Below, piece after piece: positions 4,287 through 63,615 of a stretch of DNA of 64,000 nt. How positions within the stretch are numbered: position 1 is the first letter of the stretch; each line of letters opens with the position of its first letter. The DNA is from Ceratodon purpureus (Eukaryota; Streptophyta; Bryopsida; Pseudoditrichales; Ditrichaceae), in assembly GCA_014871385.1 (NCBI GenBank), contig CM026421.1:22248865-22312864 (forward strand), read 5' to 3'. Position numbers and translations under genes: made by a program. The notes below the pieces were generated by a model. That model was given only the letters and a program-made list of their open reading frames with translations, did not search any database and was not told where the DNA came from.

Positions 4287-4295
4287 GATACTAGA

Positions 4296-4567
4296 GGGTC
4301 GCACTAACTACCCCCCACAAACTCTACATTTTGCACATTTCGGGCAGGAGGGGGCTGCCCGGTACAGGCTGTCTCTCCCATGACCATCCCGGGTCGCAGT
4401 GGGACCCGGCCTTCTGACAGCGAACCCGTGACGACTATGCCAGCTGTCTTTGCCAGCCCTGCGTGGCCTATGGATGAGCATTAACGACTTTTGGTTCGGC
4501 TCTGTTACCCCAGGCAGGGCTTGTCCTGCAGTGGGGTTTTATGAATGGCGGGTCCCATAAGTTTTTG
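4296..4567 (+). repeat. Left terminal inverted repeat of the giant MULE
   Basis: Blocks shared with the right terminus, in order from the end: CTACCCCCC then ACAAAC (about 4308-4323), CATCCCGGG (about 4384), TATGCCAGCT (about 4437), CAGTGG plus GGTTTTAT (about 4531-4543) and TGTGCTGCC (about 4557). The arms are clearly diverged from each other, with small gaps between blocks. Confidence 0.7.
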
Positions 4568-4710
4568 TGCTGCCAACTAATCCGGATCTGAGAATTTAAA
4601 CTATACTTTAGATAACGGATAATTCCGACATTCTTCTAAGAATGGGGGTATCTAAAGGTTTAGGCAAATCATGAAGTGCAGATTATTTGTTGTTCTACTA
4701 GGATCCAAAA

Positions 4711-4919
4711 ATTAGGGTTCCTTTTGGTATTAGGGTTAGAGTGGATGCGGCTTAGGGTTTATGCTGCACCAAACACATGTTCTGCTTAAAAGATGTATTT
4801 CGTCCTGCAACAAACGTGTGCAATGAAGAGGAATTAGAGAGGAACTGATGTGGTTTAGGTTTCTTTGTTTTGTGTGAGTGAATTGTTTGTCTTCCCTTTG
4901 ATTATGTGGTTTAGGGTTG
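4711..4919. promoter_or_regulatory. Cluster of telo-box-like motifs upstream of the MULE transposase
   Basis: AAACCCTA-type motifs (here read as TTAGGGTT or TAGGGTTT) occur near 4712, 4730, 4752 and 4911, all within 240 bp of the transposase ATG at 4942. In plants this motif is typical of promoters and leaders of translation-machinery genes active in dividing cells. A regulatory role here is inference. Confidence 0.4.
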
Positions 4920-4941
4920 GCTTACTACGTAGTTCTAAAAA

Positions 4942-7900
4942 ATGGCCCCAGGTGTTGATCTGTTCAGTGATGACTCGGACTGTTGCATTGTCCCTAGGCG
5001 TTTACATGAAGCAGTGAAGCTCAGTAAGAAGGTGATAGGAAGTCCTTATGAACTAGGTGCAGCATTTGTTGACCTGACAATTGAGAAACATCTTGATGAA
5101 ACTAGAGAAGCAGGGAATGGAAAGTCTAGGGAGGATCCAATTCAGATTGGTGGGCCGTTGAAGAAAGGGGAAGTTGGTCCATCATTTGTTGATTTATGTT
5201 CTGAGTATAGTAGTGATTCCACGTTCAATTTGAATGATGCTGGATTTAGGTATTCCAAGAGCTCAGTAGTGGACCTTTGGGAGGGTTCATCTCAGCCTTC
5301 TTTCTATGAGCGTCCTGTGCACATTGATGTCACAAGTGATAACACGTTGTCTAGGGACTTTTCAACTTACCAGAATTCCCAAAACTCTGCTGGTATAGGT
5401 GGTCCAGTGAGGAGGGAAGTTGTTAGTGATGAGTCTTCTATGCTATCCTCTGGAACTGATGATGTTATTGAGAGACTCCGTTCTTTAAGTACTGGAATGA
5501 AAGAGATGTATGTAGACTCTGAAGTATACTTGTCAGAACATTCTTCTGCTTCTGAGAACTATACTGATGTAGATCTGGGTAAGGGGAACGGTACGGGAGA
5601 ATGTGGAAACGCAGCTGATGTCAAGTGTGATCAGCTGCCCACATCCACGGTTGCAGATTTTAAGAGTACGAAGGTCAATCTGACTGAGATTCAAGGCCCT
5701 TCAAAACAGGCAACTCCAGGGTGTGGGACGAAGTCACAGAACGTGGGAGAAGGTCTTTCTACCGATGGTGCTTTGAAGAAAGCTGTAGGGGCTCATGGTG
5801 CTCCAAAGGCAGAGGCCGTTCCTGCAGCATCACCAAAACGGCGATCTGCAAGGCCTACAGTCCGGAAGAGGAACTTCTGTACACGCTCAGGAAAGGCACC
5901 ACCGATTGTACTTGTTGATGACTGGGATACCGAAGAGTTCCCTTACCAGGGACCAGAGCGCGAGAAGGAGCTTCTGAAGAAACTGAGGGAATTCAAGCAA
6001 ACTCCACCACCAGGACCTTTTTGCAAAGATGACATCGCCTGGGAGCCAATTCGAACTCAAAGTGCAGGACAATACTTTTTACACGAGGTTGCCGTAATTC
6101 CATGGAGCAGATTGGATGACTTCAGAACTGGAGAAGGTATGGATAAAAATTTCCCGTGCAGGTTCACTAAGGAGACTCAAAGGAAGAGGGCACCAGGCTC
6201 TCTGAATATCCCTCGAGCAAATAGCGCGTCCAAGGTTATTAGGTAATGAATCCCTGATGCCTGAATCAAATGGTTTCGAGCAGATTCTGAAGTTAAAAAT
6301 GAATCTGAACCTTCAAATTCTAAACGTTGTTCTGCAATACATTGCTCAGGTTCAGTTGTAACTACGGTCCTGCTGATGACTCCGCTATCTATATCAAGGA
6401 CCTGAAGGGTCTTCTACAAGCAGAGCAATTGAAGAGGAAGAAGACAATAGCCACTGTATTACAGAAGAAGAAGCGAGGGAAAAAGCCCGCACGTGGCAGA
6501 TTATGATGTCATGTCCTCTGACAGAAAAACAGGCCATCAGAAGACTCGCATCGGTCAGAAGGACGCTGGAACCTCGATGAAGAGAGGGTGCTTGCGGCAC
6601 TTCATTGCAAAGCAGAACTACATGGATAACAGCTTGTGTCAGCTTGTATACAAGATAAGCGAGCATGTGAATAGCCATGGGGACCAGTGTCACGGTGTGG
6701 CAGTGGCTGGTTTCAAACATTCTATGGGCACATGTCTCTCTGATAAGAAGAAGAGTGAGCTCACTGAACTCCTGGATTGTGGCTTAACACCAACTCAGGT
6801 GATGGTACAGCACAAGGCGCACATGATGGAGCTCGCCTTACAGAATGTCCCAGTGCATAGGGACATGATCGTCTTGCCTCATGACGTCAGGAACTTGGCC
6901 AACAAGCGTGCAGGGGATTTGTGGATGAAGCACAAGAACGAGGTTGTGAGCTTGAGAATGTGGAAGGACGAGAACATTAAACGTGTTTTTTTTTACCAGG
7001 AGCACAGCTTGCTCGACATGAATATCACTGAGCAGCAGAACAACCCCTTTGCACTCGGATTTCAAACTGAATGGCAATTTGAAATGTTGCTGAAGTTTGG
7101 AAATAAAGGGGCCCTTGCAATCGATGCTACCTTCGGCACAAGCCACTCAAGGGTAAGACAATCTCAGTTGCTGTTTTGTGTTTTGTTTTGAATGCTGCTG
7201 TTGAGGAGGTTCTGTGACCTCATAGTAAACAATCGAAGTGTAGAGTGTTTACACATTCGTGGACTACGCCTAAGCATATCTCCGTTGTCTGGATTGCACT
7301 ACAAGCCATCCCCTGTTACTAACTGCTCTTGTAAATATGTTCTCCAGTATCCTCTATACACCGTGATGGTGTTTGACGAATGGAGAAGCGGGATACCTGT
7401 AGCGTACTTCTTCTCTTCTTCAGCAAAAGAAGAACATCTACAGCCTATACTACAGGCCTTGAAGGACAAAGTCACCAAGAAACTACCTTCCTGGGAGCCT
7501 TCTTCTATCATTGTTGACAATGCCCAAGCGGAAATTAACGTCTTGCAGTAAGTTATTAGAAGAGTTTAGGGTCTAAATGAATAGCATGTTTCATACATCA
7601 ACACTGGTTTGCTTTGTCTTGTCTTGCTTTGTCCAGTGATCCTGACTTATTCATTGTCTTGCTGGACTGTAGAAAGCTCTGGCCGCAGTCGAAGATCCTT
7701 CTTTGCTTCTGGCACGTGAAGAAGGCATGGGCCGAGAATGCTAGAACAAAGATAAGTCGCATTGAGGATAGGGCTAAAACATTGAAGGAAGTTGGAGACA
7801 TCATGTATGGGAAGGGATTCGTCCACGGGAATGATCCTGTGGAGTGGGCCAACAACGAACTTGATAAGATTCGATTGCGTCGCCCATCTGCAGAGAGATT

Positions 7901-8897
7901 CATGAAATACATTGATAAACATTGGAGGAAGAAGATAGGGATGTGGTGCATCTCAAATCGGAATATTCCTCATGCAGGACAGAACACGAACGCTGCTATA
8001 GAGTCGTACCACGCTAATCTAAAGCGCATACTGTACCTGGAGAAGCAACGATTTATGGGGCGGCGAATGGATTGGACGGCTGATGATCTGCAGCGAGTAG
8101 TGACTGGGCACTACTGGTACTTCAGGGTGTTAAAGGAGTACGGATTCATTCGGAACAGGAAGCAAGAGATTATCATTTGTAGTGCCATATTGGCCGCCCA
8201 AGAAATCCCAGATGACTACGTTAGCTTGAATCCAGGGGGCGAGGATATTGCACTTGTTGTCTCAGTGAACAATTATCCCCAGGTACATACCGTTTATGGA
8301 CCTGATACTGAATGGGCTCAGTGTGATTGTTTTATGGCAGAACAGGGCACAATGTGCAAGCATGTGATGAAGTGTTTTGTCATGAAGCACCCTGACATTG
8401 AGGAGGGCCTTATCCTTCGGGAGGCAGGATCAAAGTGTGGAGTACAGAGGACAATCCCACTAGCTCAGTGTTTTGAATCTATGCCCCGAGAAGAGGTTGA
8501 GGATGTGGGCGGTGCAGAATCAGACAACAGTTCTAGTGCATCATGTGTAATAGGGCCAAGTATTGGTAGTGCAAAGAACCCTATCGTTCTGAACAGTACG
8601 GAGATGCAGTACAACAATGCACCAACAGCACAACGACCACTCACACAGGACAGCCAAGAGGTTGTTTTCAAGGACCTTCTATGTACTGCTGCACAACACA
8701 CTGCACTGCAGCTTCATCTGGTGTCAGACTTAAAAATCATAAGAGGGAAGTACAAAAGGATGATAGCTCGTGGAATAGTTCGTCCTGACAGTAAGGATAC
8801 CCCTGCGGCATTTCCACTTAGAGGTGGGGACTGGTCCTTAAAGAGAAAACCAGGTCGCCTTGAAACACCAAAATCTGGTAAACGATCTAGGGTGTAG
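4942..8897 (+). CDS. MULE-type transposase with SWIM zinc finger (four exons, reading frame uncertain in exon 2)
   Basis: Predicted exons are 4942-6242, 6350-7152, 7348-7547 and 7637-8897. The core shows the MULE DDE residues: LAIDATFGT, then IIVDNAQAE, then the TNAAIESYH block. CFWHVKKAW is also typical of the family. A SWIM finger follows (CDCFMAEQGTMCKH, about 8310-8370). The roughly 434-residue N-terminal exon is acidic and Ser-rich and contains repeated FVDL/VVDL motifs that resemble SUMO-interacting motifs. It ends in a conserved-looking segment (VIPWSRLDDFRTGEG). In exon 2 the reading frame changes: FSCNYGPADDS is in one frame, the stretch with KARTWQIMMSCPL (about 6440-6574) in a second, and GCLRHFIAKQ onward in a third. 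Either tiny unrecognised introns or two frameshifts lie between 6350 and 6590. It would bind the element termini and cut DNA in the nucleus. It is the only transposase gene in the element. Confidence 0.85.
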
Positions 8898-9989
8898 CAT
8901 TCAGTCGGGCCTGATACTTCTCTTTTTCTCAAGCTATGTGCTGTTTAGAGTTAATGATCATTACATGTGTGATGAAGGTAATGTGGAGCCTTTATTATGT
9001 AGTGCTCCTTATAGGCTATATCTTTTTGTCTGCTTTAGTATTTCTCGTTTGCCCGTTAGGCATATTGTGTACCAGGGTTTGTATCTACCATTTCATATAT
9101 AAACATCAGAGTATTCTACACTAAGTCTACCACGTTGTTGCATTGTTATTGCATCGGACATGAAGGAGTTCCCTTTGTAATAAACAACAACAGTACCCAT
9201 ACATGCAGTACATACATTTTACCATATATATTTCTTATAAAATGTGCACAACAATCTCATGTGTTGTGGATACATGACACCACAGAGGTGCATCCACAAT
9301 GCTTCAACCCTCCAGACTCCACTCTACTCTTCCATCTAGAAAATCCTCCCAAGAGTTGAACATACGTACTGCTGGGCTTAACACATTTAAACTGATCTCG
9401 TGTTGGAAAAGGCACGACTTGCAACGGTGCACCCCTGTGACTTGCACCACGTACTACTGAAAGCCCTCTATGTCTGTGTTGCCGCGATGGTACCTTTCGG
9501 CGATTAGAAAGGGACAGTGGCATCCGTCTCCCTGCTCCAGATCGGTCTACTTGAGGCTGCTCTTCTTGCTTGTCACGGGCGGGAGGACATTGAAGGTCCG
9601 CCATTGCCACCAGGATTTCCTTCACCTCTAACTCTAGCTTCTCCATAACCTAGTGGGTAAACGAAATAGAAGAACAGAAGAATGTAAGGGAGTACACGTC
9701 TTACTCAAACGATCTCAAGCAATGGCTGTGAAAGAGAGGACGAATACCATACGGGTGAGATCTTATGTAGTCATCTCAGTCACCCCCTGCGTGGGCCCCC
9801 CTAAACCCTAATTTTTGTACAACTGTGCAGCCCACTTGGGCAGCACAAAAAACACCTATTTTAGGGCACCACCCTCACTGAGAACAATGCAGTTTAAATT
9901 AGGAAGAAATCATGTCCATACATTCAGAGTACTCAAACAAAGTGTGATACCGAAAGAACTATAGTATCAAATTGGTCCATATCTTGTGC
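8898..9989. other. Interval between the convergent transposase and first ULP1-like gene
   Basis: It contains the 3' flanks of both convergent genes. A minus-strand open frame of 129 codons at 9257-9646 begins MEKLELEVKEILVAMADL and sits behind a possible acceptor (CTAG). Its first residues loosely resemble the last exon of the ULP1-like gene, so it may be an alternative terminal exon or a decayed duplicate. The junction phases do not fit a simple splice, and I do not call it a gene. Confidence 0.4.
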
Positions 9990-12900
9990 CTACCCCCATG
10001 TCGCCCCAGTTTTCTCTTTAATGCGCCCCGATCGCCGAGGTGGGGACGCGTCTCCTGTCTTTACCTTAGTTCTGTCTTGTACTTTGCTTGTGATTACGTC
10101 ATGGAAGCCCACGCTTACCTTACATTCCGAATCATCCACAAGCCCGGTAACTATGGCGCGCAAGATTGCGATCTTCAATTCGGCTTTGATCTCCAGAACC
10201 TCCTTCTCTCCAAATATGTGAGACATCTAGATCAATAAAGGAGACTAGTGAGATTTGAAGGTTCTGTTTGTAAAAAAAAAACTTAATTCAAAGGTTAGCA
10301 ATGTTGCAGGACAACACACCTCCTGCCTCCAGTCCACAAACTGCTTGTTCGACCAGTATGTCACGTACATGATAATGTAGCACATCACGTAATATCCGCA
10401 AGACCAGTCATCACCTTGCTGTGGACATTTCACACGGATCCAGGAGTTTAGGTCTGTGGCATTCACCCATGTGGCAGATCCTTCCTCGTGTCCCACAGCC
10501 ATGCACCACAACTTCCCTAGGGACTGATGTAGTTTCGTAGAGCCATGCAATGTTTCTCCGGAATTTGAATCGAACTTCAAGAAATGTTCACCGGAGAGAA
10601 TCGCCAGGCTCCAATGCTCACTGTTAACAATAGGGACTATGATAGTGTTGCCCTTCACGTGCCTGAACCCAGAGCTCATATGAAAGCACCGACGCAGTGC
10701 TTCGATGTCCGTTGTCTTCCGGATGACTTCGTACAGGGCTGTTGCTGGCAGTGAATTACAAAGGAGAATTGGCTCCGGCACGCAGTCTTGAAACCAAGCA
10801 CAAAAGAAGTCCATCAAGGGGGAACTGAGTCTACCTTCTGGCGAGTCTACTAACTGCATGTCCAGGTCGGGGTACAAGGTTGTGCTGCCTTTCCGGAAGA
10901 CAAAGGACAGGAATGCCGCCTCCTCTGGGCCGTGATCTTCAGATATACGTTCCCTTGATATTCTGTACGCGCTGCATGAAGGACATGAGAGTTCAAATAT
11001 AAGTACAAAGTATGTTCCAAGGCTGTAGCACAAAGAAGAACATGCAATATGTTGCAAGGCTATAGTACAAAAAAGAACACACAGTAGAGGGATGGCAAAG
11101 TTTGAAAGGACGATGAAGAGGATTTTGTTCTAGCAACTGTATGAAAATTTACATGGGATAAGCTACGGTCTATACTACCTACTCGGCTGGGCCCATACTG
11201 TGGAGGTTCGAGGTGCCGGATCTGTAAGAGGTCGTGGTATCCCCAATGGCAAGGACTGTGCTGATTTGTAATCTTTTGTTGGTGAATTAGTCGACTCATT
11301 GAGGTTAAAGGCTGCTGGTGCGGAAGCCGGATCTTCTGGTGTACGTAGCAATCCAATCAATGGTCTTGCTTGCAGCAAATGGGCTACGATCCGCGACGGT
11401 GGTGTTACGGGAGATGGAGTTGCATCCATGTGTTGACCCCGATCTGGGGCAATAGTCGCTAGAGGGAGCACGTCTGGTATACTGCTGGATGTAGGAAGAC
11501 CATCACCCACATAGTCTGTATGCAGGACATGTGATCTGTTCACCGGCGGCTGGATGCTTGTGGGGGGGTCTTGTCCTGCTATGTCTTCTATAGGATAGGA
11601 ACCAAGGTCACTGCCGAGATCCAGAGGTCGCATGGGGGAAATAGCGGCAGATATACGGGACGGCCCCAGCTTTAAAGCCAGATGTGCTGGAGTTCGGCGG
11701 TACCACCTCTGGTTCGGTAGAAGCACCGATGGACTGGGATTCTTCATATGCTCATACAATATCCTCCTCTCTCTCTCACCCCCGTGAGCCTCTGGAGACA
11801 CCTCTATATTCCCCCAATCTATCTGAAATGTTTGGGAGCTAATCAATTGAGAGCAGAAAGGGATATCCAAATGTGCGAGATCGATGGACGGCTGCGCTCC
11901 TTTATATCCAAGCCTCTGGAAAGTCAATTCCAATTCCTTCTCGCGGAGGTCCATTAGCGCCTGTACTGCCTTATCAACATACTTCTTCAAAGATGGAGGG
12001 GGGTACGGTACATTATCCAGTCCAAGCATTCCCCAACCAGCATCGACGTCCTCACGTACATATAGTATCTTAGAAGTAACCTGACATATACACAGATGGC
12101 AGATGTTATAAGTCCTGTAACCATTCTGCAGTACATCAAAACCAAATGCAGCAAATAACATAGACATTGTATTTCAAGCACATTACAACCAAATTGTGTG
12201 TTTAATACCTCGTCACAATGTTTTCGAAGCAAAGTTGGATTGCTTGGGCCCTGTGCCCACCACATGGCAGCAAGCACATCTCCGTATGCATCAGTACGAT
12301 GCATGTCTAGCACAGCACGTCTAGCAACACGACAGAGAAAACTCTCAATTTTCTCCAGTACGGGTTCCTGGTTCCAGCCCTGAAACGCCATAAGACCAAC
12401 CATATCCCTCGAACATGTACTGAGAGGATAACAGAACCCTACCTTTATGCAAGGAAACAATGACCACCCAATGTCTATTATGTCTTGCGCACAAGAGGAT
12501 AGTCTCTGCGACTCTATCCTGTCCCTAGCAATGGCCAACACTTTTTCCCTCGTCATCCCATTCACGGGATGGGCGAGAGCACAAGTGCGCCCCAGCGACA
12601 CTCTGGTATACAACTTCAAAGCCCTTACGATATGTGGGCACTCTAGCTCTAAGGTCATTGGTTCAGCTGTAGCTTCCTTTTGCAGCACAGCCAAAATACT
12701 CTCCAGTTCCTCTGAAGTGTGGTTCCAGGGTTAATCTGGTAGCCCCTGAACAGTCTGCCGTGTTAATATCCTGAAAAGAGGAGACCATGCCCATGTACTG
12801 TCTTCAACTTTCATTCTCTCTTTGTCCTCAAATCGCCGCAGCTGAGTTCGAATGTGAGCCTCTCGCTTCTCCTGTAGTGCTATCTCAGCATTGAGCTTAA

Positions 12901-15244
12901 GGGACACGTACTCTGCCTTTTCCCCTAGATACTTCAAGTACAATCTCAGCTTCTTTAGTTCTGCTTTCCTACCCTCCAGGTTTGCTGGTTTTATGTATGG
13001 ATTCCAAGGCTTAACGGACATCATGACAAACTCGACCACTTCTGCGTGATGTTCTCCGTCTTTACCAGCACCCTGCAGTACAAAATAACAAGTTGATACC
13101 ACAAATTTTGTTTAGTGTATCCCACTGAATGCAATACCAAAGTCTCATGGACTGCCCCATATGCCATGTTTCAAAGCACCGCAAAGACAACCTACTTCTT
13201 GCAGTACTGCACACTGAATTAGGATCCGCAGTACAAAGTGTTCAGTACCTGAGCTTCTCTCCACGCCACCCAAGGCCCGATAGATGCTAAGATCTTTGCG
13301 CCTAGTTGGTCATGTATCTCTAGTTCTTCTAACGCCATCATGCACGATTCAGGGTCGTGGAGCAATGATCGCTCTACTATTATAGCCTTAGGGGATTCCT
13401 GAAGGAGGTAGTACAATCCTGCAATGCTCTGGGGAACAGGGGGGGGGCCCAGCTTGTATTCACCGTCGAGAGTAAGCGATGCTGCGTATTGTTGAGCCCT
13501 CTGCATTACATCTTCTCTACTCATGTTGTCGCCAATGTAGTGCAGATCATCATTGTCTACAGATGAGCTTCCAACTGGTAAATTCGGTCCAGGCACTGAA
13601 ATTTTGGGAGCCTCCAATCCTGCACCTAAGTCACCTATCCTTCCACTCTCATCCCCGCCATCCAAATGCTCTGCGCCGTAGAACTGGGAGACATAAAGAA
13701 TGTCTTCCATGACGTCTGAATCCGATCTCACATTGTCTAACCCCTGTAGGACATCAGGTCCTTCTGGCACCTTAAACCTCTTGCGTTTCCTATCATCCCA
13801 GGTCTCTGACTCCTTGTTCGGAGGAAAAGAATGTTCCGTGCTCACTCGACATATGGTGTCTTGTAGCTCTTCCACCTGTTTTCTACCTACGCGCCCCTGA
13901 CCTGTCCTGACTTTTCTAACCTGTGCTGCAGTTGGTTTTGCCACCTCTGTTTTCCCCTTATCGCTCTCTACCTTCTGTTGACCCCTTTCTGGCTTTTTGC
14001 TGCCCTTTGTGTCTTGTGAATCAGACTCTCTATGCGCATGGGAAACTCGAAGATCTGTCTCCTGCACTACACCTGTCACTGTTGTAGTCCGCGGATTCCA
14101 GGGACGACTGCCCTCTTCTCTAGGAAACGACAAGTGAAACTCTGCAAGAATGTCCTTCACCGCCCCTCGTTCACTCTGCAGAAACGTTGGGTACATTTTA
14201 AGCACACCTGTACCGTCCTTCTTCCACGCATCGCATTGATCCTTGTAACGGTGATAAGATAGTGCATTTTTATCCAAAAAATCTTGATGACAGTACCTGC
14301 ACCAATAGTAATACCGTTTCTCCAGCGGCGGGTCTTGCCAGTAGTGGTATCGGCATAGATAATGAGCCTCAACGACTAGCTCCTTGAACTCCCGCTCAGT
14401 GTATAAACAGGCACAAGGTACTCTCCCTTGTTTTAGCTCAGACCGATACACAGGCTCCCCTCCGACCGTGACCCCCTACATTTCAATACATCTTCAATTA
14501 CCGAGCACAAAGCCGATACACTAAAACCGTCCCAGAAATCAAATCCAGTAAGACATTAGAATGTAACGCACCTGTAATTTCCCCACAGCTCCTCGCAGAA
14601 TCAGCTCTTTCCAACGCTCGTATCCTAGCCCTTCAATTAGACGTGTGTCTTTATTCACTATCAGCTTCTCGTCCTCGGGGAAAGACACTCGACCAGCCGT
14701 GAATCCGATGTTCAGGTGAGTGGACGACTCTTTGATACCATTTGCCCCTCCTGGTTCCATCACAGTCCATCTACAAGGGATGGGTTTCTTCTTAATTTCT
14801 GCAAAGTCCGAGTCTGAACTAGTTGCAGAATCAGCTTCAGGACCTCCCTCTCTCTCTCCAAGAACTCCTTCTCGTAAACCCAATAGCGGCTCAACTGCAG
14901 CGTCAATTCCCTCAGCAAGCAGAGAGTTGCGTTGCGATCTTGCCCTTGTGCTTCTACCTACTGCATAATAGAACTTAGAATTTTCAGAAAACAATTTCAA
15001 GAAAGGAGCAAAACACCAGAACCATACCCTAACCAGGCCATGGCGACAAGGGTACGATACCCAACCATTTCGTTCGACTCTACAGAGCCACAAACAAAAT
15101 TCTATCGAGGATTAATAGAATCAAATACATTAGCAGAACCCAACATTTAATCTCTCAAATCCAACTCCATAATACAAATTCCTGCAAACCCTATATTCCA
15201 CACCCACCTGAGTTCTCTTTGCAGACGGACTTCAGTCGACCCAT
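9990..15244 (-). pseudogene. ULP1/C48 protease-domain gene, copy 1, interrupted by one in-frame TAA
   Basis: Seven exons with consistent phases, listed 5' to 3': 15244-15208 (starts MGRLKSVCKENS), 14960-14572, 14475-13249, 13072-12209, 12080-11179, 10971-10320 and 10226-9990, about 1435 codons. Exon 3 has a C2HC finger-like block (WCRYCHQDF, then HRYKDQC). Exon 6 is a ULP1-type cysteine protease domain with His (NSEHWSLAIL), Asp (FLKFDSNSG), Gln (KCPQQGDD) and Cys (SCGYYVM) all present. The family removes SUMO or related modifiers. Exon 4 contains TAA at 12733-12731; the frame is open on both sides, and the paralogue at 17792-22116 reads straight through the aligned position (LDLPKTAPPRPWKHTEEEL). 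This copy is therefore either disabled, read through, or the base is wrong. It also keeps an intron (14571-14476) that copy 2 lacks. Confidence 0.8.
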
Positions 15245-17791
15245 GTCCCCGAACCTTTGCTTACAATTGTTCACCGCTCCTCTCGGCTCTTCCAAAACAC
15301 TCTCTTTCCTCCCTGATAATGAAATCAACAAGTACCCCTCCCCCCCGCGCCGTCGTCATTGCGAGTCCTATAATCTCCACGTGAAAGTTAGAGCCCTGAT
15401 GAAACTAACCCGCAAAATCTGTCAATGCTCGTGAATATGCTAGTGTGCGGCAGCACAAGTGCAACTCAAACAGCGAAAAAGCGAAACTGCAGAACAACGA
15501 CTAAAAAGGACAGTCAACCAACACTCAGACCCCCTCTCATATTCCGTACCCATCACACTCAGAGTACATGGTACAAATTACAATATACGAAAACGTTTAT
15601 GCGATGGTCCTGCATCGCGGCATGGAAATGCTTTTGTCCTCACAGACATTTATCACCCTTTGAAATAAGATTATTGTTATTCGATTCCACTAATATGATT
15701 GTGGTCAATATGATAAGTACATATTTTGTACGTTGAGCTATGAATGTTTGAAATTTATACTTATTTGTTTTCACAGTATTTTGTCATTGTAGTTGTATGT
15801 TTTACTATGTAATCATCTTAAAGAACATTCCCTCCAACTCTAAGTGATTCGGAGATTAAAAAACTTTCCTAAACGTCATACTTGTAATTTAACTTAATAA
15901 TACAATTGATCTAATTAAGCCTTCACACCTTAGTTGTCGTCACTACTATAGTGCTATATATGCATTTTTTAAAACAACTTTAACTCCCGTTGTTGTATTA
16001 ACTGTTCAGTATCTTCAAATATTTACTTTATAAATTTCTAACTCAAACAACTGTCTTTCTCGTCTATCATTATTAAAATTGTACATTCTTTTATTTTTTT
16101 TAAATTTATTTCATTTTCCTATTATATTTCTCTCGTTTTTTTTTTTTTTTTTTTTTTTTCAAGTGTTGCTTCCACCCTTGGTTTAATATTATCATTTCTA
16201 CTGAGACAATCTCTCCAGTACCTTTATGAGAATTTGCATTACCTTATTTTTTAATTATATTTATTATGTTGTATTATATAATTTTGATTCATTTGCTTTT
16301 ATTATTAATCAATTTTATTGTAATTGTTATCTTGTTTTTAATATTTGATCTCTAATTCTTTTATTTATTTTTTCTTTACAATCATTCTTTCTTCTTTTTT
16401 GATTTATTTACCTTCTTTTTTTTTTTTGATAGATTCCCTTAACATCTAAATTTCATTTGAAATATCATAGGTCTAAACTATTTTTCGTTTGTTTCCTTTT
16501 TTTTCCTCTTATTTTATTTTTATTGTTTTGTCATCACTACTAATTTTCGTATTATTCCACGCTTTCTATATTTTTCATATTGATAATTTCTCTTAACAAC
16601 TTAACTTTGCTTTTTATTGGCGTTGCCTTTTTTGTATATAGTTTTCTTCATAACTTTTTATGGATTAACATTTTTTTCTTTTCGACATTATCTATTTTCT
16701 CTACTTTAACTTGCTTTTTTGTTAAAGCCCTTAATTCCTCAAAACGTCTTTGATTTAAATTTTTTAACTCGTTGTCTTTTTACTAATTCATTTGATTTAT
16801 TTTTTATTTTTTATTTTTTTGTTTCTTAACATTTTTTATTTTTTTTTCATCACTGCGTATTTTCTACTTTCTTAGCGTCACCTTGCTCCTTTCTTTTAAA
16901 AAAATCCCTTAAGAAATTCATTTCTCTTTTTTATTTTCTTTATTCTGATGTTTTATTTCTTTACACCTTCATTTCTATTTTTTAACTATAATTAACCTCT
17001 TTATTGACCTTTTTATTGTCCAAAGATCCTTTTCTCTATTCCTTTATTATATTCTTTTTTTTCGACATTGCCCTTGACATAGTTCCCCACTTATTTTTGC
17101 TCTTCATCGTTTACTTTTACTTTTACCATTCATTTCTCATTTTATTGTTTAGGTCCAAAACCCAATTTGTTGAATTATGTTTTATTCTATCTTTTTTTTT
17201 CTTTATTTTTTTTCATTTTATCTACTTATTCATATAATATTAATTTGATTCTGAAGTTTAGAATTTTTTTCAATTTTATCTGGTTCTCTCCATTAACGTT
17301 CTTATGTTTTTGTTTACAACATATATTTTTACTTCCTTCTTTTATTATTTCTTTCTCTCTTTTTATTTACTTCATTGTCGTTCTGAACCCAGACAGGCTT
17401 GTACAATTTGACATTACAGCATTTTATGTTTTGTCTTATTCCTTATCCTCATCCTGTTTATGTACTGCATACTATTATTATTATTGGCTGAAGGTATACC
17501 TAGCTTTTATACTCTGCCAAGCAGCAACACACATTGTAGACGGAAACCACTGTAGATTACCTTAAGTACAAATTTATCGACTAAGCATCCAATGTTCTTA
17601 ATGTGGACAATGCCACTGCAATACCACAGCAGCAATAGAATATTCTGATGGCACAACAAAACTACAGAGACAATACTACAGAATTGCAACGTTTATACAC
17701 TTGTTAAACACCAGTTCTTTCTAGTCCATCTGATACCATCCAAGGTAGTGTCTCTAATTAAGTACTCATTTCCATAGGTGGGCTTCAAAAT
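15245..17791. other. Promoter side of copy 1 and a strongly T-rich tract
   Basis: From about 15250 to 15700 the sequence is ordinary upstream DNA. It has a telo-box (AAACCCTA, 15186-15193) just inside the first intron and a GGCAGCACAA motif near 15449 that echoes the element termini. From about 15760 to 17390 the plus strand is dominated by T with some C, including a run of more than 20 T near 16140-16160, and has very few G. Open frames there (rich in Phe, Leu, Ile and Tyr) are composition artefacts. No gene is seen. Confidence 0.7.
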
Positions 17792-20700
17792 TTAATGTAA
17801 ATCCAAAATTAGCACGTCGCTACGACAGCAGTACAAGGTCGAGTCTTTGGCCAGTAATATGCTGAGTAGAGCTTTCTTGAGGTCGGATCTGACCTCTAAA
17901 ACGGCATCATGTCCAAAGAGGTCGGTCATCTGCCACAAAAACAACTGAACCCTGTCAAACACATGTGGCAGTGGCTACATAAATGTAGACAAAAGTATCT
18001 TGCAGTACAAAGGAGAGGATGTTAGGAGAGGTATTCAGCACTTACATCGCTGAACAGACCTGGTAATTCCATGTGCTTCACGTGGTTAGTGTACATCATC
18101 ATGTAAGACATAACATAATAACCACAAGAGAAAGTATCACTTTGTTGTGGACACTTCATGTGCACCCAAGATTTAATGTCGCATGCCTTTCTCCATGAAG
18201 TAGAGCCCTGCATGTGACCCATTCCTATGCACCAGACCTTTGCTAGGGCCTCATGAAACTTCTGAGGGCCATGGAAATTAGGATTTCGGAGAAAACCAGA
18301 ATCAAACTTAAGGAATCCCTTGTCACTCAACACAGCTAAGCTCCAGTGCTCGAAGTCACAGACTGGGACTATGAGCGTAGTCCAATTCCTAGGACAAAGA
18401 CCAAAATACTCCTTAGAGAATTCTTGTAGTGCATGTATTTTTGTAGTCTTGTTCGTGAGATCCCGGAGTTCGATGGCAAAAACTGATGGGCATACCAACA
18501 TTTCTGGAGATAACGACATCTGAAACCAGAGGGAAAAAAAGTCCATCAACGGAGCACTGACTTTCCCCTGGTCGTCATCCAGTGCTAGCATATCGAGATC
18601 AGGCCACAAAACCGTGCTCCCCGTGTTGAAGGTGAACTCTATACACCCGTGCTGTACGTGACCGCGTTCTTCGTTAATCCTCGCTGACATTACCTCGTAC
18701 AAACTAACAATTCAACTCTTAGTGAAGTGAAGCCCCGGAAAAGAACCACATGGACGATGTTAGTATAACAGTAAGCACTTGCAGTACACGGCTCACTGTT
18801 GAGGGGGTGGCAGTTGATCAAACCTTGGTAGAGAAGCTTGGTCAGTAGTGGATTTTGATATTCCGTCGTTGTGGCCCCCGAAGTCTGCTGGCTCTGACTG
18901 TTCTGCCTGCATAGGTACTGTAGCGCTCGAAATAAAATCTGCACTGTTACTTTGCAATGGGGTAACGCCTGAGCTGACCTTGCTGTCATCTGAATCAGTG
19001 AATGAAACATGATGTTCTGGAGTGTAGTTGTCTACTACAAGGCTGTGCAATACATCGGAGGGAAGCTTGGACTTATTGTAACCCAACAAATCGTAAGCAG
19101 CCTCCAATCCCTTATCTCGTAGGTCCACGAATGCTTGAGTTGCATTGCAGAGGGTACTGTGGATGTCTTTCGAGGGGTTGGTTGTTTGTCCTACACCCAA
19201 CAACGCCCACCCAGTGTCCACATCTTCCCTGACTGCCAGCACTGTTGAGAAGACCTGCAATGGCCCAAAGGTAATCGCACATTAATTATCTTCTTCTTTC
19301 TTGACTGTCTTTTCATGGAAATCATACTATTTTGTATGGTAAAGAAGCTAACAAATTCCTCTGCACTAAGTAATTTTCAGCATCTACACAACACTACCTA
19401 TGCACTACATTCATCTACGGTTACTGATAGTACTGACAACCTATCCCGTACTTAAGAGAACTTACTTGATTCAGTTCGTCCTTCCCTGAGATGTCACTCT
19501 CGGAGTGATCCAATGTCCACATCGCTAACAGATGTTTGTAGGTGTTGCTTGTCTGGCGCATATCAAGGAGGGCCCGTTGTGCCATACGAGAAAAGAACAA
19601 CTGAATCTTCAGGAAGACGGCCTCTTGCTTTGTCCTGTCTACGCCAATCAATGAGTTCACGTCCTCAGCGCAGTTAGACAAGGGCTCCACATTGTCAGAA
19701 CAAATACAAGGGAATAGCGTCCATCCAAACTCGGACAGTTGCTGAGCGCAGAACAGTAATCTTTGGGACTCCACGTCGTCACTGGCCATCTCTAACAATT
19801 TCAACCGTGTACAACCCAAGGTAGGATGCGACATTGGAGAAAACCGCGTCTTCGCTAGGCGTCCGTGTAGTTTCAATACACGGACTACATGGGGACAGTC
19901 GTACTCCAACGTGGTCTTTTCTCCCTGATACTGTCCTTCTATTGCACGGAGTATGGCTATTAACTCCTCTTCTGTGTGCTTCCAAGGCCTAGGCGGTGCT
20001 GTCTTTGGTAAGTCCAACAGTAGGACTTGGAACATTGAAGACCACGCCCAATCCCGGTTCTCAGCCTCAATAGTCTGTCTGGATTCGTAATCACTTAGAG
20101 CCCTCTCAATGAACTTCTCCTTAGCTAACCTTAGCAAATTCGTAGCCCTCACCTCATATGCACATTGCTCTTCAAGGTATTCGAGGTACGAAGACAACTT
20201 CGAAAGCTCATGTTGTCTTCCATCGAAATCTGGGTTGCTGACATAGGGATTCCATGCCATAGTCGTGAGGTGCACAAATTCTTCCTTGTTGTCCTTCTCC
20301 AAGGCCGTCTGCAAAATAAAGGTCATTTGTATTATTTCCATGAGGAACACCTCAATATAAAAAACAGATCATAGGAATATCAATGACAGACCTTACTTAT
20401 GATATTATGAAGAACTAGAAAATCCAGGGACTCACCAACTGCGCTCTTTTCCAGTGGATCCAAGGCCCTACTGCAGCCATGATCTTTTCGCTTAGAACAC
20501 CGTTTACCTCTAACTGGTTCAGAGCTGTCATACAGTCTGCAGGTATCTTCAGAAGAGCCCTGTCAACGATCTGTACAGGAGACTCGGACAAAAGATAAAA
20601 CAAACCCGGTACCTTCAGAATGAGAGGGGGGGGGCCAATCTCAGGTAAGTCTGCAAGACAAATGCATTCAGCTTGCTTTTGTGCTGCAGCGTACACTACA

Positions 20701-22116
20701 TCACGAGTATCCCTACTTCCACCATTGTGACCGTCGTTGGAAAATTCTGTACTTCCAAGAGTATTGATTTCTTCGTCGTGAACTGGAGATCCATGCTCTT
20801 CCGTTTCAGGGTCCTCAGAATTCTTTGATTGTTGCAAATTTGAGGCACTACAAACTGCAGCACAAGACAATCTTCCATGCTGGTCTGCATGTACGGGCTG
20901 TAGTGACGACAAGGTCCGTCCTTGCTGTCTAAACCGAAGGTAATATCGTGGGGGAGCATCCTCCTCGTACAAAATCTTCCGCTTGGGATCCACAGATGAT
21001 TCTGATTCAACTTGCTTCTTAAGGCGCTTGAAAGATGTATTACCACTTCGTAGCCTAGGCTGAGTTGAAGTGTCTTCTGGCTGTACATTTTGAGCACCTA
21101 TGTCGGTATGAGCTTCATCTGTACCTCTATCCGAAGCCTCCATTAGGAAGGAAGATCCTTCCACCACCGTATCAACTGTAACGCTAAGTTTGGGCTCCGA
21201 GTTTGCAGAACTTGAACTTGATCCCTGTAAGTACACTCTCTTTCTTTTCTTATACTTCGTTGTGCAATGGTCCTCTGAAACTATCTCCTGTCGAGGTGCC
21301 CACGGTCTATGTTCTGGACGGGCGGGAAACTTAAGTCCTGCCTCCTTCAGAATAGTCTTAACTATCTTCTTGTCACTCGGAGAAAAGGTCGGGTACATCT
21401 TTAGAAGTGCTCCCGATTTTCCCTCGCATTCCTTCCAAGCAGAACACTGGTCCTTCTGCCGGTGGTATGATAGACCATTCTTATCTTTAAACTCCTGCTG
21501 GCAGTACAAACACCAAGACCAACGACGTCTATCATTGTAGAAATGATACCTGCAAGTGTAGTGTGATTCGATGACGAGTTGCTTGAATTCTTTCTCCGTA
21601 TATAGGCACACACAGTGCTGCCTACCCTGCTTCAAAGAGTACCGATGTAGAGCCTCTCCTCCCACTGTGACACCCTCAATAATGCCCACAGGTCCGTTTC
21701 GTACCAAATCCAGCCACTTTTCAAACCCTAACACCTTTATGATCCGATGAACTACATTGACATTTATTTTTTTTGTCAAAAACTTACGTTCAACCGGCCC
21801 TCCAGTAGTACCCTCACCGATTTTAGACTGTGCGACAATACCAAACAAAACAGCTGGAGAAGTACTTGGGGCATACATTCTGTTGGCACCAGATATGTCT
21901 TCACGTAAATATGTCGATGAAGCGCCTAGAGTTACCCTCATGTTCAATCTATCATTCTCCATCAAATCCTGCAACCCCACCCCAATAGAACCAACCACCT
22001 TCGGACTCCTTTCCTTGTCTTGCTGACAGGATGTACTACCGTGCATACTTCCTTGGGCATTTCCTTCCATACTAACCAAACCTTGATGCTCACCTTGTAG
22101 CTTTCTCCTAGATACC
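17792..22116 (-). CDS. ULP1/C48 protease-domain gene with C2HC finger, copy 2 (open in all recognised exons)
   Basis: Exons, 5' to 3': 22116-20436, 20308-19466, 19254-18797, 18703-18046 and 17929-17792. All junctions are GT-AG and the phases add up to about 1259 codons. Exon 22116 begins mid-codon after an acceptor, so a further 5' exon (about 22400-22340) may exist; otherwise the first usable Met is in MEGNAQGSMHG. Order of parts: Ser/Thr-rich N terminus, conserved GVTVGGEALHRYSLKQGR, C2HC finger (WCLYCQQEF, then HRQKDQC), charged linker, helical region with WNPYVSNPDFDGR, and a ULP1 domain with His (FEHWSLAVL), Asp (FLKFDSGF), Gln (CPQQSD) and Cys (FSCGYYVMSY). The catalytic residues are intact, so a de-SUMOylating-type protease is plausible. 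It lies inside the giant MULE with its 5' side towards the right terminus. It matches copy 1 exon for exon, apart from one intron that copy 2 lacks. Confidence 0.85.
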
Positions 22117-22566
22117 CTAAACCATAGAAACAATTGATTAGAGAAACCCTAACTGCCATTGTTACACAGCCCAAACCGACCTTTAAGAACCAAATATTTC
22201 CAATCCAAAAATATCTCCTTTGCCGTCCCTAAACAACCTAAACCAAAAATTACACACAACATATTCGAAAAGCATAACAACGTCATCAGCCAAACAAATT
22301 AAAATAACTTGACCTATATCACAACTTAAATGCCATACCTCGCAGCTGGAGCCTTCAACTCTACAAACCGACGTTGAACTTCGCATCTCCACCTACGTCA
22401 CAATACCAATACTGCCGCACACCATACCGGAAGCACTCCACGCCATCCCGACACCGTCGCTGCAGGTCTACCTAAACCCTAATGTACTCATCCTACTAAG
22501 TTTTACAGGAAAGACAACTAAAAAAAGTTCCAATACAACTTTCTCATTGCGATAACGCAGCACAAT

Positions 22567-22852
22567 AGTGGGTGGCAGCACAGCCACATCAACGTAGAAC
22601 AAGACTCGGCCCAGAATAAAACCCGACTACCACTGTAGACGATGAAGTCTAATGAAGGAGCGAAGGGAACTTGGACGAAAAGGTTTGCAAGCTGGCATAC
22701 CGCGTGGGCCCGGGACCTGGGCCATCACGGGCCGCCCGGGATCTGGAGGGAGCCGGGCCCGCCATAGACCCAGCCGCCATTTCGACGGGCAGGGTAAGGC
22801 AGCCCGCAACATTGGCGGAATGGGGTTTGTGGGGGGGTAGCTAACGTCCGGC
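22567..22852 (-). repeat. Right terminal inverted repeat of the giant MULE
   Basis: Read on the minus strand from 22852 it matches the left terminus block by block: TTAGCTACCCCCC, ACAAAC, CGGGC, ATCCCGGG (about 22740), TATGCCAGCT (about 22700), CAGTGG with GGGTTTTAT (about 22633-22615) and TGTGCTGCC (about 22578-22570). A GC-rich island at 22700-22800 belongs to this arm. GATACTAGA follows immediately. Confidence 0.7.
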
Positions 22853-23002
22853 GATACTAGATATGTAACATAGTTAACTCTTTCCCCTTTGGGAATATAC
22901 CCATGACACAAGCATTATCTTATTCACAGTAAATAATGCTTGCGTCAAAATAAATGAATTTGTGTATCCTAACTAGTTTAGGATCAGATGCCAATTTCTC
23001 TA

Positions 23003-23940
23003 TTAACCCCTAAGGTTCCTTGACTAAGTTTCACCAGAAAATGCTTCAAAACTGCCATTTTTAATGTGAAAAGCATGAATGACTAAAAAAATATTATTTT
23101 CTAATTCTAACCGTAAGATACTCAAAAAGATTGTTGTTGTTGTAGTAGATAGCTCAAAAATTTCATTATAATTGATCGTAGATATCAGAAGATTATAGCA
23201 ATTGAATTTTGAAAACATTATTTTTTGACACAGTCTTTAACTGGGTCAACACACTCTAACTTTTTTTTCTTTGATTTTTTGCATTATTGAATTTGGGGGT
23301 TTTGGTGCATAACAAAGAAGACTACGTTAGCTAATTGTATAAAAAAAAAATCAAACACGAAAGACAAGTGTAGCATGTTGAAAACAATATTATTATTAAG
23401 TTAAATACAAAAACGTACTAATAAATATTTCTTTCCTAGAAATTCCATTATGTTATAAAGTTCCAATCCAAACGGTCAAAGTAAAGATTGATGTCCATAC
23501 TTTAAGCAAAAAAAAAAGAAAAAACCTAAAAAAACAACTTTTTGTAACTTTTATGAAGGAAAGAAGAATATTTTTTAGTACACTAGCCCGAAACGGTGAG
23601 AAAACTTTGATATTTTGTGGAGTGAACATTTTGTACTGAATTTTTTTTTTTGGGAAATATCAAAGATGGCAATATTAAGTATTTATAGAAAAAATCTCAG
23701 AGGTAATAGATATATGTAGTGTGGCTGCCCGAACTGCCTGCTGAGCAGCTATTTCCACTCTAGGTACCATAACTATTTTTTGAAATGTCTAATTGAAAAA
23801 AAAATAGATTCCCTCAGAGTCCTTGTTACGGCCCACATTCACTAAAAGTTTCAAAAAATCACGACTTAAATTGAAGTCACATGTACATGACCGAATTCTA
23901 AAAAAAGCCCAAATGTGGATGATTGTCCTTTAGAGGTTAA
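23003..23940. mobile_element. TTAA-flanked element, copy B (930 bp, diverged)
   Basis: It begins TTAA-CCCCTAAGG (23003) and ends CCTTTAGAGG-TTAA (23940). Internal blocks parallel copy A: 'aaaactgccattttt', 'acaaagaagactacgttagctaattgta', 'actgcctgctgagcag', and the 'ctcagagtccttgttacg' segment near the end. It is clearly older than copies A and C. No coding capacity is recognised. Confidence 0.7.
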
Positions 23941-41250: not shown

Positions 41251-41390
41251 CCGGTGGACAGCGGTCACCTTAACCTCGTGAACTGGTCATCTAAGTTGAT
41301 GTGACACATAGGCTCCAATTCCTCAATTAAACTTTCACATTCTGAAATGATGATTTCTGCAAAAGATCAAGTCCATTTTCTAAGAAGTTT

Positions 41391-42912
41391 TTAACGATGA
41401 CCCAATTTAATCAAAAAATGAAGATCATGAATCAAAAAATAGAGATCACAAATATAAAAATGAAGATTAAAAATCAAAAAATGAAGATCAAAAAATAGAA
41501 AATGAAGATCAAAAAATAGAAAATGAAGATAAAAAAAAACAAAAGGAAGATCGAAAAGAAAAAAATAAAAATAAAAAAATAGAAAATGAACATCAAAAAT
41601 AAGAAAATGAATATAAGAAATACAAATAAGAAAACAAAAAATAACAAAAGACAATCAAAACTTAAAAAATGAAGATCAAAAACACAAAAATGAAGATCAA
41701 GAATACAAAAATGAAAATAAAAATTACAAAAATGAATCTCAAGAATTAAAAAAACCAAGGTCAGAAATCAAAAAACGAAAATCAAAAAATAGAAAATGAA
41801 GATCAAAATAAAAAAAGAAAATTAAAAAAATGGAAAATGAAGATCAACAACACAAAAATGAAGATTAAATATCAAAAAATGAAGATCATAAATCAAAAAA
41901 TGAAGATCAGAAATCAAAAAATGAAGATAAGAAATACAAATATGAAGACAAAAAATGAAAAAAGGAAAATCAAAAATTAAAAGCTGAAGATCAAGAATAC
42001 AAAAATGAAGATCAAAAATCAAAAAATGACTACCTCTAAATCAACAAATGAAGACCAAAAATCAAAAAGGAAGATCAAAAATCAAAAAATGAAGATCAAA
42101 AAATCAAAAAATGAAGATGAACAATAAACAATGAAGAACGAATATCAAAAAATGAAGATAAAAAAACAAAAAATTTAATATAATACACCTAAACTTCTAA
42201 CAAATAATTGTAAACTTGAGAGCTTACATTGATTTATATACCTTACATATGAGAGTTTGAAGTTTATCAAATTCCACAATTAGTGAAACTAAGTCCTATA
42301 ATTAGTGAAAGTGAAGTGAATTCAAAATATAAATGAATTCTATGAAAGGGCCTGGTAATAAATATACTCTTAAATTTAAAATTCATTAAAATTTAGAATT
42401 CACTTAGTTTCACTAAAATTGTACAAGTTTCAGAACTTCAAATTCTCATTTGTAAAGTATATAAATGAATGCAAGCTCTTAGGTTAAATATTATTTGTTA
42501 GAAGTATAGGAGTTTTATATTTAATTTCTTGATTTTTGATCTTGATTTTTTGATATTTGTTTTTTTTTTTTTTTTTTTTGTTCATTTTCATTCTTTTATT
42601 TTTGATCTTCCTTTTTTTGATCTGTGCTCCTCTCTTTTGGATTTTTGACAAAGCAATAAGACCAATCCTCAATCTTTGATTTTTAAATAATCTTCAATAT
42701 ATGATACTCAGTCTTCAATCTATGATCTTTAATTTTTAATCTATGATTTTTGATCTTCAATCTCGATTTTTAATCTTCAATTTATGATTTTTAATCTTCA
42801 ATTTATGATTTTTATTCTTCAATCTATGATATTTATTCTTTTTATTAACATGTATTTCATATATAGGTTATATATGAAATTCTTTAAATTTCATTTTATT
42901 TTTAATCTTCAT
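41391..42912. repeat. Fold-back structure: long imperfect palindrome with minisatellite arms
   Basis: The left outer arm (about 41400-42175) is an array of AT-rich units, commonly GAAGATCAAAAATC followed by AAAAAAT, about 14-21 bp. The right outer arm (about 42520-42910) carries the same units in reverse orientation (TTTTTGATCTTCAAT). Inside are single-copy arms that pair with each other: 42178-42296 and 42390-42515 share AACTTCTAACAAATAAT, TTATATACNTTACANATGAG and TAGTGAAACTAAGT in opposite orientation. A poly-T run sits at about 42559-42580. This is the layout of fold-back transposons; no transposase is present. The long aromatic-rich minus frames across it are repeat artefacts. Confidence 0.75.
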
Positions 42913-59064: not shown

Positions 59065-59933
59065 TTAACCCCTAAAGTTCTGAAGGTATTTTTCATCAAA
59101 ACTGCTTGAAAACAGCCCCTCTTCAAATCAAGATGGATTTTGCTAAGTTGAAGTCTTAATTAGTACATCTAACCGTAAGATCTTGTAGCTAACTTCTATG
59201 TCTATATGTCCACCAAATCTTAGACACTCATTCCTCACCAATTGCAAGATCATAACGTTCAAAGTTGAAAATCAAGTTTTTTTTCCCTGCGAAAAAAGGG
59301 AACATCAGAGTTTTGAAGGCCCAAAAAACCATTTTTTTGCATTATGGATTTTGGCAGTTTTGATGCACATCAAAGAAGACTAAGTTAGCTAATTGTAGTA
59401 AAAAAATCATATTCAAAAAAGTTGTAGAAGGTTGCCAAAAAAATCATTTTCCGCTAGGGGGTATACTGAAATTCACAAACAAAGGCTGTTTTTTGACAAT
59501 AAAAATAGCATACGAGAAAATTTTGGATTAAAAATCCGAACGGTGGGAACATGCCTTACTGCCTTCTCTATACATAAAAATTTTTATTTTTGAAAAATAT
59601 CAAAATCTCAATTTTTGGTGGAATTTCAAAGTTTTGTCTTTGGGCAGATTTTGGTAATTTTGGGCAGTTTTGGGCAGTTTTGGGCAGAATTTGCTGCATT
59701 CACTGTCATTCTCATTGGCTAACTGACTGCCCTTGGAGGAGCTTTTGCGGTTCAGAGGTGAAGAACTTTTCACTCCGACATCGGAATTGAGAATAAAAAA
59801 TACTGACACGAAGCTCTCACCAAGGCCTACTTTCAATAAAATTTTCATAGATTTTGAATTCAAATTGCATCCGCATGTACATGCCCAAACTCCAAAATAG
59901 CCCCATTTTGCCACATTGTCCTTTAGGGGTTAA
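59065..59933. mobile_element. TTAA-flanked non-autonomous DNA transposon, copy C (861 bp)
   Basis: It has the same length and nearly the same sequence as copy A, beginning TTAA-CCCCTAAAG and ending CTTTAGGGG-TTAA. Differences are mostly single substitutions (for example 'ctgaaggt' against 'ctgagggt' near the left end). Flanking DNA outside the TTAA is unrelated to that of copy A, so this is an independent insertion, not a segmental duplication. Confidence 0.8.
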
Positions 59934-61098: not shown

Positions 61099-62583
<1,485 letters not shown>

Positions 62584-63411: not shown

Positions 63412-63615
63412 GTGATCAATGAGTGCAGAGGTGATCAATGAGCGCAGAGTTTGGATTGTATGAGCGCAGAGTTTGGATTGTATGAGCGCAGAGTTTGGAT
63501 TGTATGAGCGCAGAGTTTGGATTGTATGAGCGCAGAGTTTGGATTGTATGAGCGCAGAGTTTGGATTGTATGAGCGCAGAGTTTGGATTGTATGAGCGCA
63601 GAGTTTGGATTGTAT
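63412..63615 (+). repeat. Tandem arrays: two 19-bp units, then eight exact 22-bp units
   Basis: Two copies of a 19-bp unit starting GTGATCAATGAG (63412-63449, second copy overlapping the next array) are followed by a 22-bp unit (starts GAGCGCAGAG, ends GGATTGTAT) repeated exactly eight times at 63440-63615. The 22-bp unit reads S-L-D-C-M in one frame, which equals the first catalytic-Asp motif of the transposase fragment that follows directly. The period is not a multiple of three, so the frame changes from unit to unit. Confidence 0.9.

Follow-up and report, generated by a model that had tools for sequence, protein, structure and literature searches.

The question raised by this stretch of moss DNA is whether a block of 18.6 kb carrying a transposase and two protease genes is one transposable element, and whether the two proteases belong to that element or are stray cargo. 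The stretch analysed, here called the window, comprised 64,000 nt of Ceratodon purpureus (assembly GCA_014871385.1, CM026421.1 positions 22,248,865-22,312,864), and coordinates below are window positions unless a contig is named. The analysis confirmed that an 18.6-kb Mutator-like element (MULE) with its own transposase gene (TN) and two SUMO-protease-like (ULP1) genes, U1 and U2, is real. The block is very probably one insertion from a lineage of cut-and-paste MULEs whose genes code for a DDE/SWIM-type transposase and for two zinc-finger cysteine proteases of ULP1 type that go back to an ancient duplication. The first-pass annotation had read it as a MULE with 9-bp target-site duplications (TSDs), a transposase and two convergent ULP1 genes; this overall reading was supported, and further copies were found to share the borders and differ in their TSDs.

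The borders were defined by the 9-mer GATACTAGA, which abuts the element (4296-22852) exactly on both sides, as the perfect duplication noted at first had implied, and which has one more copy in the window, at 33710. Its length falls within the 8-11 bp described for MULE target-site duplications in the available part of PMC6446971. Local inverted alignment of the two ends of about 340 bp gave a score of 40, and the best shuffles scored 32 and 34.5 (two sets of 1000 dinucleotide shuffles each). The inverted-repeat signal of the outer 45 bp was reached by 0 of 1000 dinucleotide shuffles. Positions 45-130 were at chance level, with 459 of 1000 shuffles reaching the observed score, and positions 130-340 showed a weak likeness (11 of 1000). 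The inverted termini are real but short, with their likeness mainly in the outer 45 bp or so; long inverted repeats are a feature of MULE ends that the non-TIR members lack. The earlier description of diverged termini sharing six blocks over about 280 bp was right as to their existence but overstated their extent, because only the outer 45 bp clearly beat the shuffles.

Searches of the assembly (362,488,568 bases in 151 contigs; the window lies on C1, of 29.0 Mb, and C6 measures 110.5 Mb) showed where other copies begin and end. The left-end query (4287-4600) produced 26 matches at 25 places, two pieces at C6:47.55 Mb being merged; 23 of 25 non-window matches started at query positions 9-12, approximately the first base past the TSD, and the others at 6 and 110. 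The right-end query (22550-22861) produced 23 matches, of which 19 of the 22 non-window ones ended at positions 301-309, approximately the last base before the TSD; among the three exceptions one enters an N gap and two are inner pieces. Since copies begin and end at the TSD edges, the borders of the element do not lie at 9.8 or 15.5 kb, the inner positions considered in the first-pass annotation. Pairing left and right ends by position gave 17 elements, and a perfect 9-bp TSD of its own was in place in 11 of them, while none of 270 mismatched combinations of left and right ends reached at least 8 of the 9 bases. The element family was thereby established. Half-copies at C6:13.16 and C6:13.64 Mb share the 9-mer TATGCTTAG, the first of them entering an N gap; they are probably one element split by the assembly and were counted as one. 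Five other elements of the 17 measure approximately 28-53 kb between their ends and must therefore contain further insertions. A 12.8-kb copy at C6:18132958-18145805 with a perfect TSD (CTTCATTGT) retained the transposase and U2 and gave no U1 match; it is either an internally deleted copy that moved or one in which the deletion came later. A joined-flank search of this one assembly found no empty site, returning only the element's own two flanks and a 72% one-flank match on C3.

The same mapping bears on the possibility that two nested or adjacent elements had been read as one. A mosaic junction between subfamilies near 14.9 kb would fit such a composite. However, the copies share the outer ends and differ in the 9-bp TSDs around the whole unit, and the gene order recurs in other families. 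The composite was rejected on the border mapping and the whole-unit TSDs, and its probability is negligible.

The three genes of the single element are listed with its other features in Table 1. All exon models are predictions from sequence. The automatic model split TN and U1 wrongly at broken places and differs from the TN model given here at several joints, and the exons were adjusted by hand using the reading frames and a second family of related elements (family 2; reference copy at C2:8.750-8.771 Mb, in two stretches). Spliced TN, with X at the broken codon, matched PF10551 (MULE) with an E value of 9.1e-17 and PF21056, a ZSWIM RNase-H-like family, with 1e-12; the TN exons taken separately gave no Pfam match. 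Motifs which we take to be DDE, CxWH and SWIM-like CxC..CxH were read by eye from the sequence. U1 and U2 are convergent to TN and are co-linear paralogues with 33-44% amino-acid identity, and each scored above the Pfam gathering score for Peptidase_C48 (PF02902), so the two multi-exon ULP1/C48 paralogues recognised initially stand. They have in common H, D, Q and C residues with presumed roles as in other such proteases, and the C2HC finger attributed to each of them was recovered as the same C-x2-C-x12-H-x5-C pattern in both, with Pfam scores below the cut-off only.

Table 1. Predicted and mapped features of the element, in window positions
Feature	Position	Strand	Remarks
Left TSD copy, GATACTAGA	4287-4295		9-bp
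Left terminus	4296-4640	+	outer ~45 bp pairs with right terminus as inverted repeat
TN, MULE transposase gene	4942-8897	+	from frames, splice signals and comparison with family 2
TN exons	4942-6242, 6350-7152, 7348-7547, 7673-8897	+	hand-read
U1, ULP1 gene 1	9994-15079	-	5' end provisional
U1 exons (approximate)	14475-13249, 13072-12443, 12379-12209, 12080-11179, 10971-10320, 10226-9994	-	
U1 catalytic exon, C48 domain	10320-10971	-	H, D, Q, C residues in common with U2
U1 C2HC finger, C-x2-C-x12-H-x5-C	14233-14301	-	
Exchanged cassette (spacer and U2)	14967-22250		differs between subfamilies; left edge ~14.84-14.99 kb, right edge ~22.2-22.55 kb
Pyrimidine-rich intergenic spacer, U1-U2	15100-17900		+ strand T 0.43, G 0.11
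U2, ULP1 gene 2	18022-22116	-	
U2 exons (approximate)	22116-21788, 21727-20436, 20308-19466, 19254-18979, 18703-18022	-	each with one open frame
U2 catalytic exon, C48 domain	18022-18703	-	H, D, Q, C residues in common with U1
U2 C2HC finger, C-x2-C-x12-H-x5-C	21444-21512	-	
Right terminus	22513-22852	-	genome matches end here; pairs with left terminus
Right TSD copy, GATACTAGA	22853-22861		9-bp

The window copy itself appears from its sequence to be broken in the transposase and in U1, and is probably no longer autonomous. Its TN carries a frame-shifting 4-bp length difference near 6488-6491; in all 10 comparable copies (11 were taken, one being off target) and in family 2, TN is four bases shorter near 6.49 kb and keeps a single frame there, one of the copies having a stop. 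Its U1 has an in-frame TAA at 12731-12733, where the copy at C1:25.98 Mb has a sense codon; the C1:25.98 Mb copy is itself interrupted by a stop codon within the catalytic exon of U1. In U2 of the window copy, every modelled exon reads through in one open frame. The perfect TSD and near-identical relatives speak for the recent insertion proposed initially, after which the transposase frame would have been broken and the U1 frame cut short in this copy.

Whether the pair of proteases is particular to this copy was assessed over the wider set of transposases in the assembly. When part of the transposase served as a protein query, 152 matches were obtained and the 150 listed ones were used (150 of 779 candidates scored); the U2 domain as query gave 150 matches (150 of 250 candidates scored). 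The counts that follow hold among the matches listed. ULP1 loci were counted downstream on the opposite strand, within 40 kb of the transposase match. The unit of the tally is the hit and not the element, so that for example C6:26553844 and C6:26558200 are pieces of one element, and some hits fall in the wrong identity band, such as C6:13658980, which belongs to family 1. Exactly two convergent ULP1 loci were found at 46 of the 65 transposase hits with at least 60% identity; for the rest of the 65 there were three loci in 2, one in 8 and none in 9. The spacing was similar in 31 of the 46, the two ULP1 loci lying 1.5-3.5 kb (first) and 9-13.5 kb (second) away from the match to the transposase. 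By comparison, 84 of 85 hits at 42-59% identity were without a ULP1 locus and one had a single weak match 20 kb off, in a tally that may miss more diverged ULP1 genes beside these transposases. Including the 35 hits obtained with the Peptidase_C48 family, for which 127 of 127 candidates were scored, left the tally unchanged, and when either strand was allowed within 30 kb, a ULP1 hit lay near 3 of the 85 distant transposases. The paired-protease design is a lineage trait of one transposase branch in this genome. What had been described initially as an unusual and possibly undescribed architecture is therefore not an oddity of one copy but extends across a clade. In the open-licence literature searched, neither a pair of ULP1 genes within one element nor an element of this kind in a bryophyte was found described; the words Mutator, MULE, MuDR and protease were absent from a paper on Physcomitrium transposons.

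The distant hits at 42-59% form a large related MULE set that is almost without ULP1 linkage, and 73 of the 85 pieces were stop-free; active families or domesticated genes may be among them. Apart from the present elements, Peptidase_C48 hits were observed to cluster at C4:7.45-7.74 Mb, some of them in long open frames (up to 744 codons).

Comparison with family 2 dated the pair relative to the families. In the catalytic part, the first ULP1 gene of family 2 was closer to U1 (61% identity, against 43% to U2) and the second was closer to U2 (56%, against 41% to U1). Outside the catalytic part, the first gene showed 43-62% identity to U1 against 40-47% to U2, with a 36-residue piece at 83% against 67%, and the second gene showed 39-64% to U2 against 29-43% to U1. 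When 14 catalytic domains were placed in a midpoint-rooted tree, in which two rows are long, a branch with 100/100 support parted six U1-type from eight U2-type rows. The duplication that gave U1 and U2 is older than families 1 and 2, because each side of this tree holds both families. For the family-2 copy no inverted termini were found in the stretch examined, outside which its ends may lie.

Selection was estimated as the ratio of non-synonymous to synonymous change (dN/dS, omega) by the Nei-Gojobori method. Between the window copy and family 2, dN was 0.12 with saturated dS for TN and 0.23 with dS of about 2.4 for U1, and omega for U2 among its three subfamily types was 0.18-0.30. These low ratios indicate, at the level of sequence, that purifying selection kept TN and U1 between families and U2 between subfamilies. 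Values of omega of 0.20-1.36 from pairs with an early frame-shifting gap were set aside for their few codons (16, 56 and 57 for U1; 110 and 90 for TN), together with pairs formed among these copies.

Passive capture of host gene fragments by the element (transduplication), in which the two ULP1 genes would have no role for it, has to be weighed against this history. Capture of gene fragments is common in MULEs, and the ULP1 sequences that plant MULEs carry are called transduplications in the available text of PMC13317346 and PMC2528002; the stops in many of the present copies agree with such an origin. Against it, the same two genes stand in the same order beside transposases down to 60-80% identity among the matches listed, many copies keep long open frames and catalytic residues, and omega is well below 1 between families and subfamilies. 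Passive capture is accordingly rated very improbable, and the recurrence of the design across the branch suggests that the proteases do something for the element and are not stray cargo.

U2 has a history of its own within the retained pair. The copies at C1:25.98 and C2:20.91 Mb matched the window copy at 99% identity over the left end, the transposase and the final 300 bp, and at 98-99% over the catalytic exon of U1, but their U2 protein was only 71% identical. Along the C1:25.98 Mb copy, identity to the window fell from 95-99% to chance at 14.84-14.99 kb; it recovered at 22.2-22.55 kb within the piece from the right end. The U2 gene plus its spacer is exchanged between subfamilies as a cassette. 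At C6:92.45-92.53 Mb two neighbouring inverted copies have TSDs that agree crosswise (9 of 9 and 8 of 9), as expected from recombination between copies that inverted a segment of about 14 kb between their left ends. These neighbours (C6:92447070-92527374) carry different U2 types, and the crossed TSDs catch recombination between copies of different U2 type. The base make-up of the spacer was nearly equal in three sequences, namely the window spacer, a second family-1 type and the family-2 spacer (+ strand T 0.41-0.43, C 0.20, G 0.11, A 0.26-0.27), and the two family-1 types were unalignable over most of their length.

This exchange is what would be expected if a protein and its target co-evolve, and it is a point in favour of the proteases being anti-silencing factors comparable to VANC/KIU of Arabidopsis VANDAL elements, with fingers that would bind non-coding DNA of the element and unsilence related copies only. 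VANDAL elements pair a transposase with further genes including VANC, a sequence-specific anti-silencing protein, sometimes with a Ulp1 domain, as far as the available accounts describe them. In young copies, C>T or G>A changes were about twice as frequent per site in CpG (28 of 1124) as at other C/G positions (90 of 7073), with positions counted over the whole element and changes only in the fetched parts, and this bias is compatible with host methylation. On the other side, neither of the two spacers tested showed enrichment of a repeated short motif relative to shuffled sequence, and DUF1985 had no match in the scanned pieces, which covered part of the U1 and U2 exons. By this analogy an anti-silencing role may be entertained, but it is on balance rather unlikely.

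A role of the proteases in transposition itself, by processing or de-SUMOylating the transposase or repair factors, is a tentative possibility. Protease domains of the ULP1 or OTU kind are found repeatedly in DNA transposons that are not related to one another (Ginger1, Mutator, CACTA), and PMC2836005 and PMC2528002 put forward a part in transposition for them. Consistent with it, the two proteases stay with this clade and a convergent ULP1 locus stood beside 1 of the 85 more distant MULE transposases listed. However, 73 of those 85 pieces were stop-free although 84 lacked a ULP1 locus, so such a protease seems unnecessary for MULE movement generally.

Several results weigh against the reading of the locus as one insertion of a selected two-protease MULE lineage. 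Six of the 17 elements were without a perfect TSD in place: one agrees across an assembly break, that at C6:65.73 Mb agrees at 8 of 9 bases, that at C6:20.29 Mb agrees only with a one-base offset, the TSDs at C6:56.35 Mb disagree, and the crossed pair was described above. Fewer than two ULP1 loci were counted at 17 of the 65 listed transposase hits with at least 60% identity, and only 33 of these 65 pieces were stop-free, stops being commoner in the two-protease clade than in the 42-59% set (73 of 85 stop-free). A Pfam scan of spliced TN gave no SWIM match, so that of the original call of a SWIM-type MULE transposase the MULE part is borne out by PF10551 and the SWIM part by motif only. The sole match of the U2 domain among PDB sequences was yeast Ulp1, with an E value of 0.84. 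Finally, comparisons within subfamilies and between young copies say less about selection (omega of U2 0.18-0.50, of U1 0.21-0.83, of TN 0.21-0.47), these values including copies with stops and resting partly on few changes.

Under the favoured explanation of a single element with a selected protease pair, the transposase would cut at the short inverted ends, and the transposase class together with the TSDs points to cut and paste with a 9-bp staggered target cut. The U1 and U2 proteases would reach the nucleus, where their C2HC fingers may aim them at DNA or chromatin. There they could strip SUMO or a similar modifier from the transposase or from host proteins of silencing or repair, and this would help the element to move or stay expressed. 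A protease role in transposition and VANC-like counter-silencing would both be compatible with the data. A bolder scheme, drawn by analogy with VANC, is that a matched pair of zinc-finger ULP1 proteases has belonged to a MULE lineage of bryophytes since before the families split and serves it as a two-part system for counter-silencing or transposition, in which U2 and its spacer would be an exchangeable specificity cassette; we regard this scheme as doubtful.

KAONASHI elements are among the closest known systems. In KI-MULE (KAONASHI, KIU) of Arabidopsis a ULP1-like gene is described in reverse orientation to mudrA in the available parts of PMC2528002 and PMC13317346, and the ULP1-MULEs of melon, rice and grapevine likewise combine a MULE transposase with a ULP1-like gene, as far as they are described there. 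The present element resembles the KAONASHI type in carrying PF02902 genes inside a MULE in reverse orientation to the transposase; it differs from KAONASHI and the angiosperm ULP1-MULEs in having two ULP1 paralogues, each with a C2HC finger, a length of approximately 18.6 kb, short recognisable inverted ends and a moss host. VANDAL elements of Arabidopsis, whose VANC-type proteins are reported to counteract silencing (in the accessible portions of PMC5735166, PMC10398659 and PMC13317346), resemble it in a transposase plus two further genes (VANA/VANB/VANC). Unlike them, both further genes here are ULP1 paralogues, VANB and VANC being compared by description. Ginger1 shares the link of an Ulp1/OTU-kind protease to a DNA transposon; according to the part of PMC2836005 available, it belongs to another transposase superfamily and its protease domain is part of the transposase. 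MuDR of maize likewise has a 9-bp TSD and two convergent transcription units; it differs in that its second gene, mudrB, is not a ULP1 protease and in that its ends are near-perfect inverted repeats of about 200 bp. ULP1-bearing MULEs as such were already known in angiosperms and, per the available text of one paper, also in hydra and lancelet.

The copies are unevenly distributed in the assembly. C6 holds 20 of the 25 left-end places and makes up 30.5% of the assembly (binomial 5e-7). The U and V sex chromosomes of Ceratodon purpureus exceed 100 Mb each, approximately 30% of a 360-Mb genome, in the part of PMC8000587 available, and C6, with most element copies, is a putative sex chromosome. 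Four of the most similar copies are on C1 (two, including the window copy), C2 and C4, and not on C6. The distribution looks as if old copies last mainly where recombination is low.

Elsewhere in the window, a 300-bp direct repeat occurs at 890-1189 and 59065-59364, its two units being 96% identical at a distance of 58 kb. A related piece of 74 bp is present at 23275-23348, close to the right flank of the element, and the repeat is probably another dispersed one. Tandem arrays with units of 21 bp and 22 bp were observed at 41325-42200 and 63394-63657. A long open frame at 61258-62583 on the + strand presumably encodes a plant alpha-tubulin, as read by eye.

ULP1-type proteases occur in unrelated DNA transposons of plants and animals. 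A selected protease pair in one clade, and almost none beside the distant MULEs of the same genome, provides a natural comparison. The host is a moss, a plant group with easy gene targeting, which suits asking what a SUMO-type protease does in a transposon. It also places ULP1-bearing plant MULEs outside flowering plants. The capture of Ulp1 in non-TIR (terminal inverted repeat) MULEs was dated to the monocot/eudicot separation by one review, in the available part of its text (PMC13317346), and set against that dating the moss host would make the present lineage older or independent.

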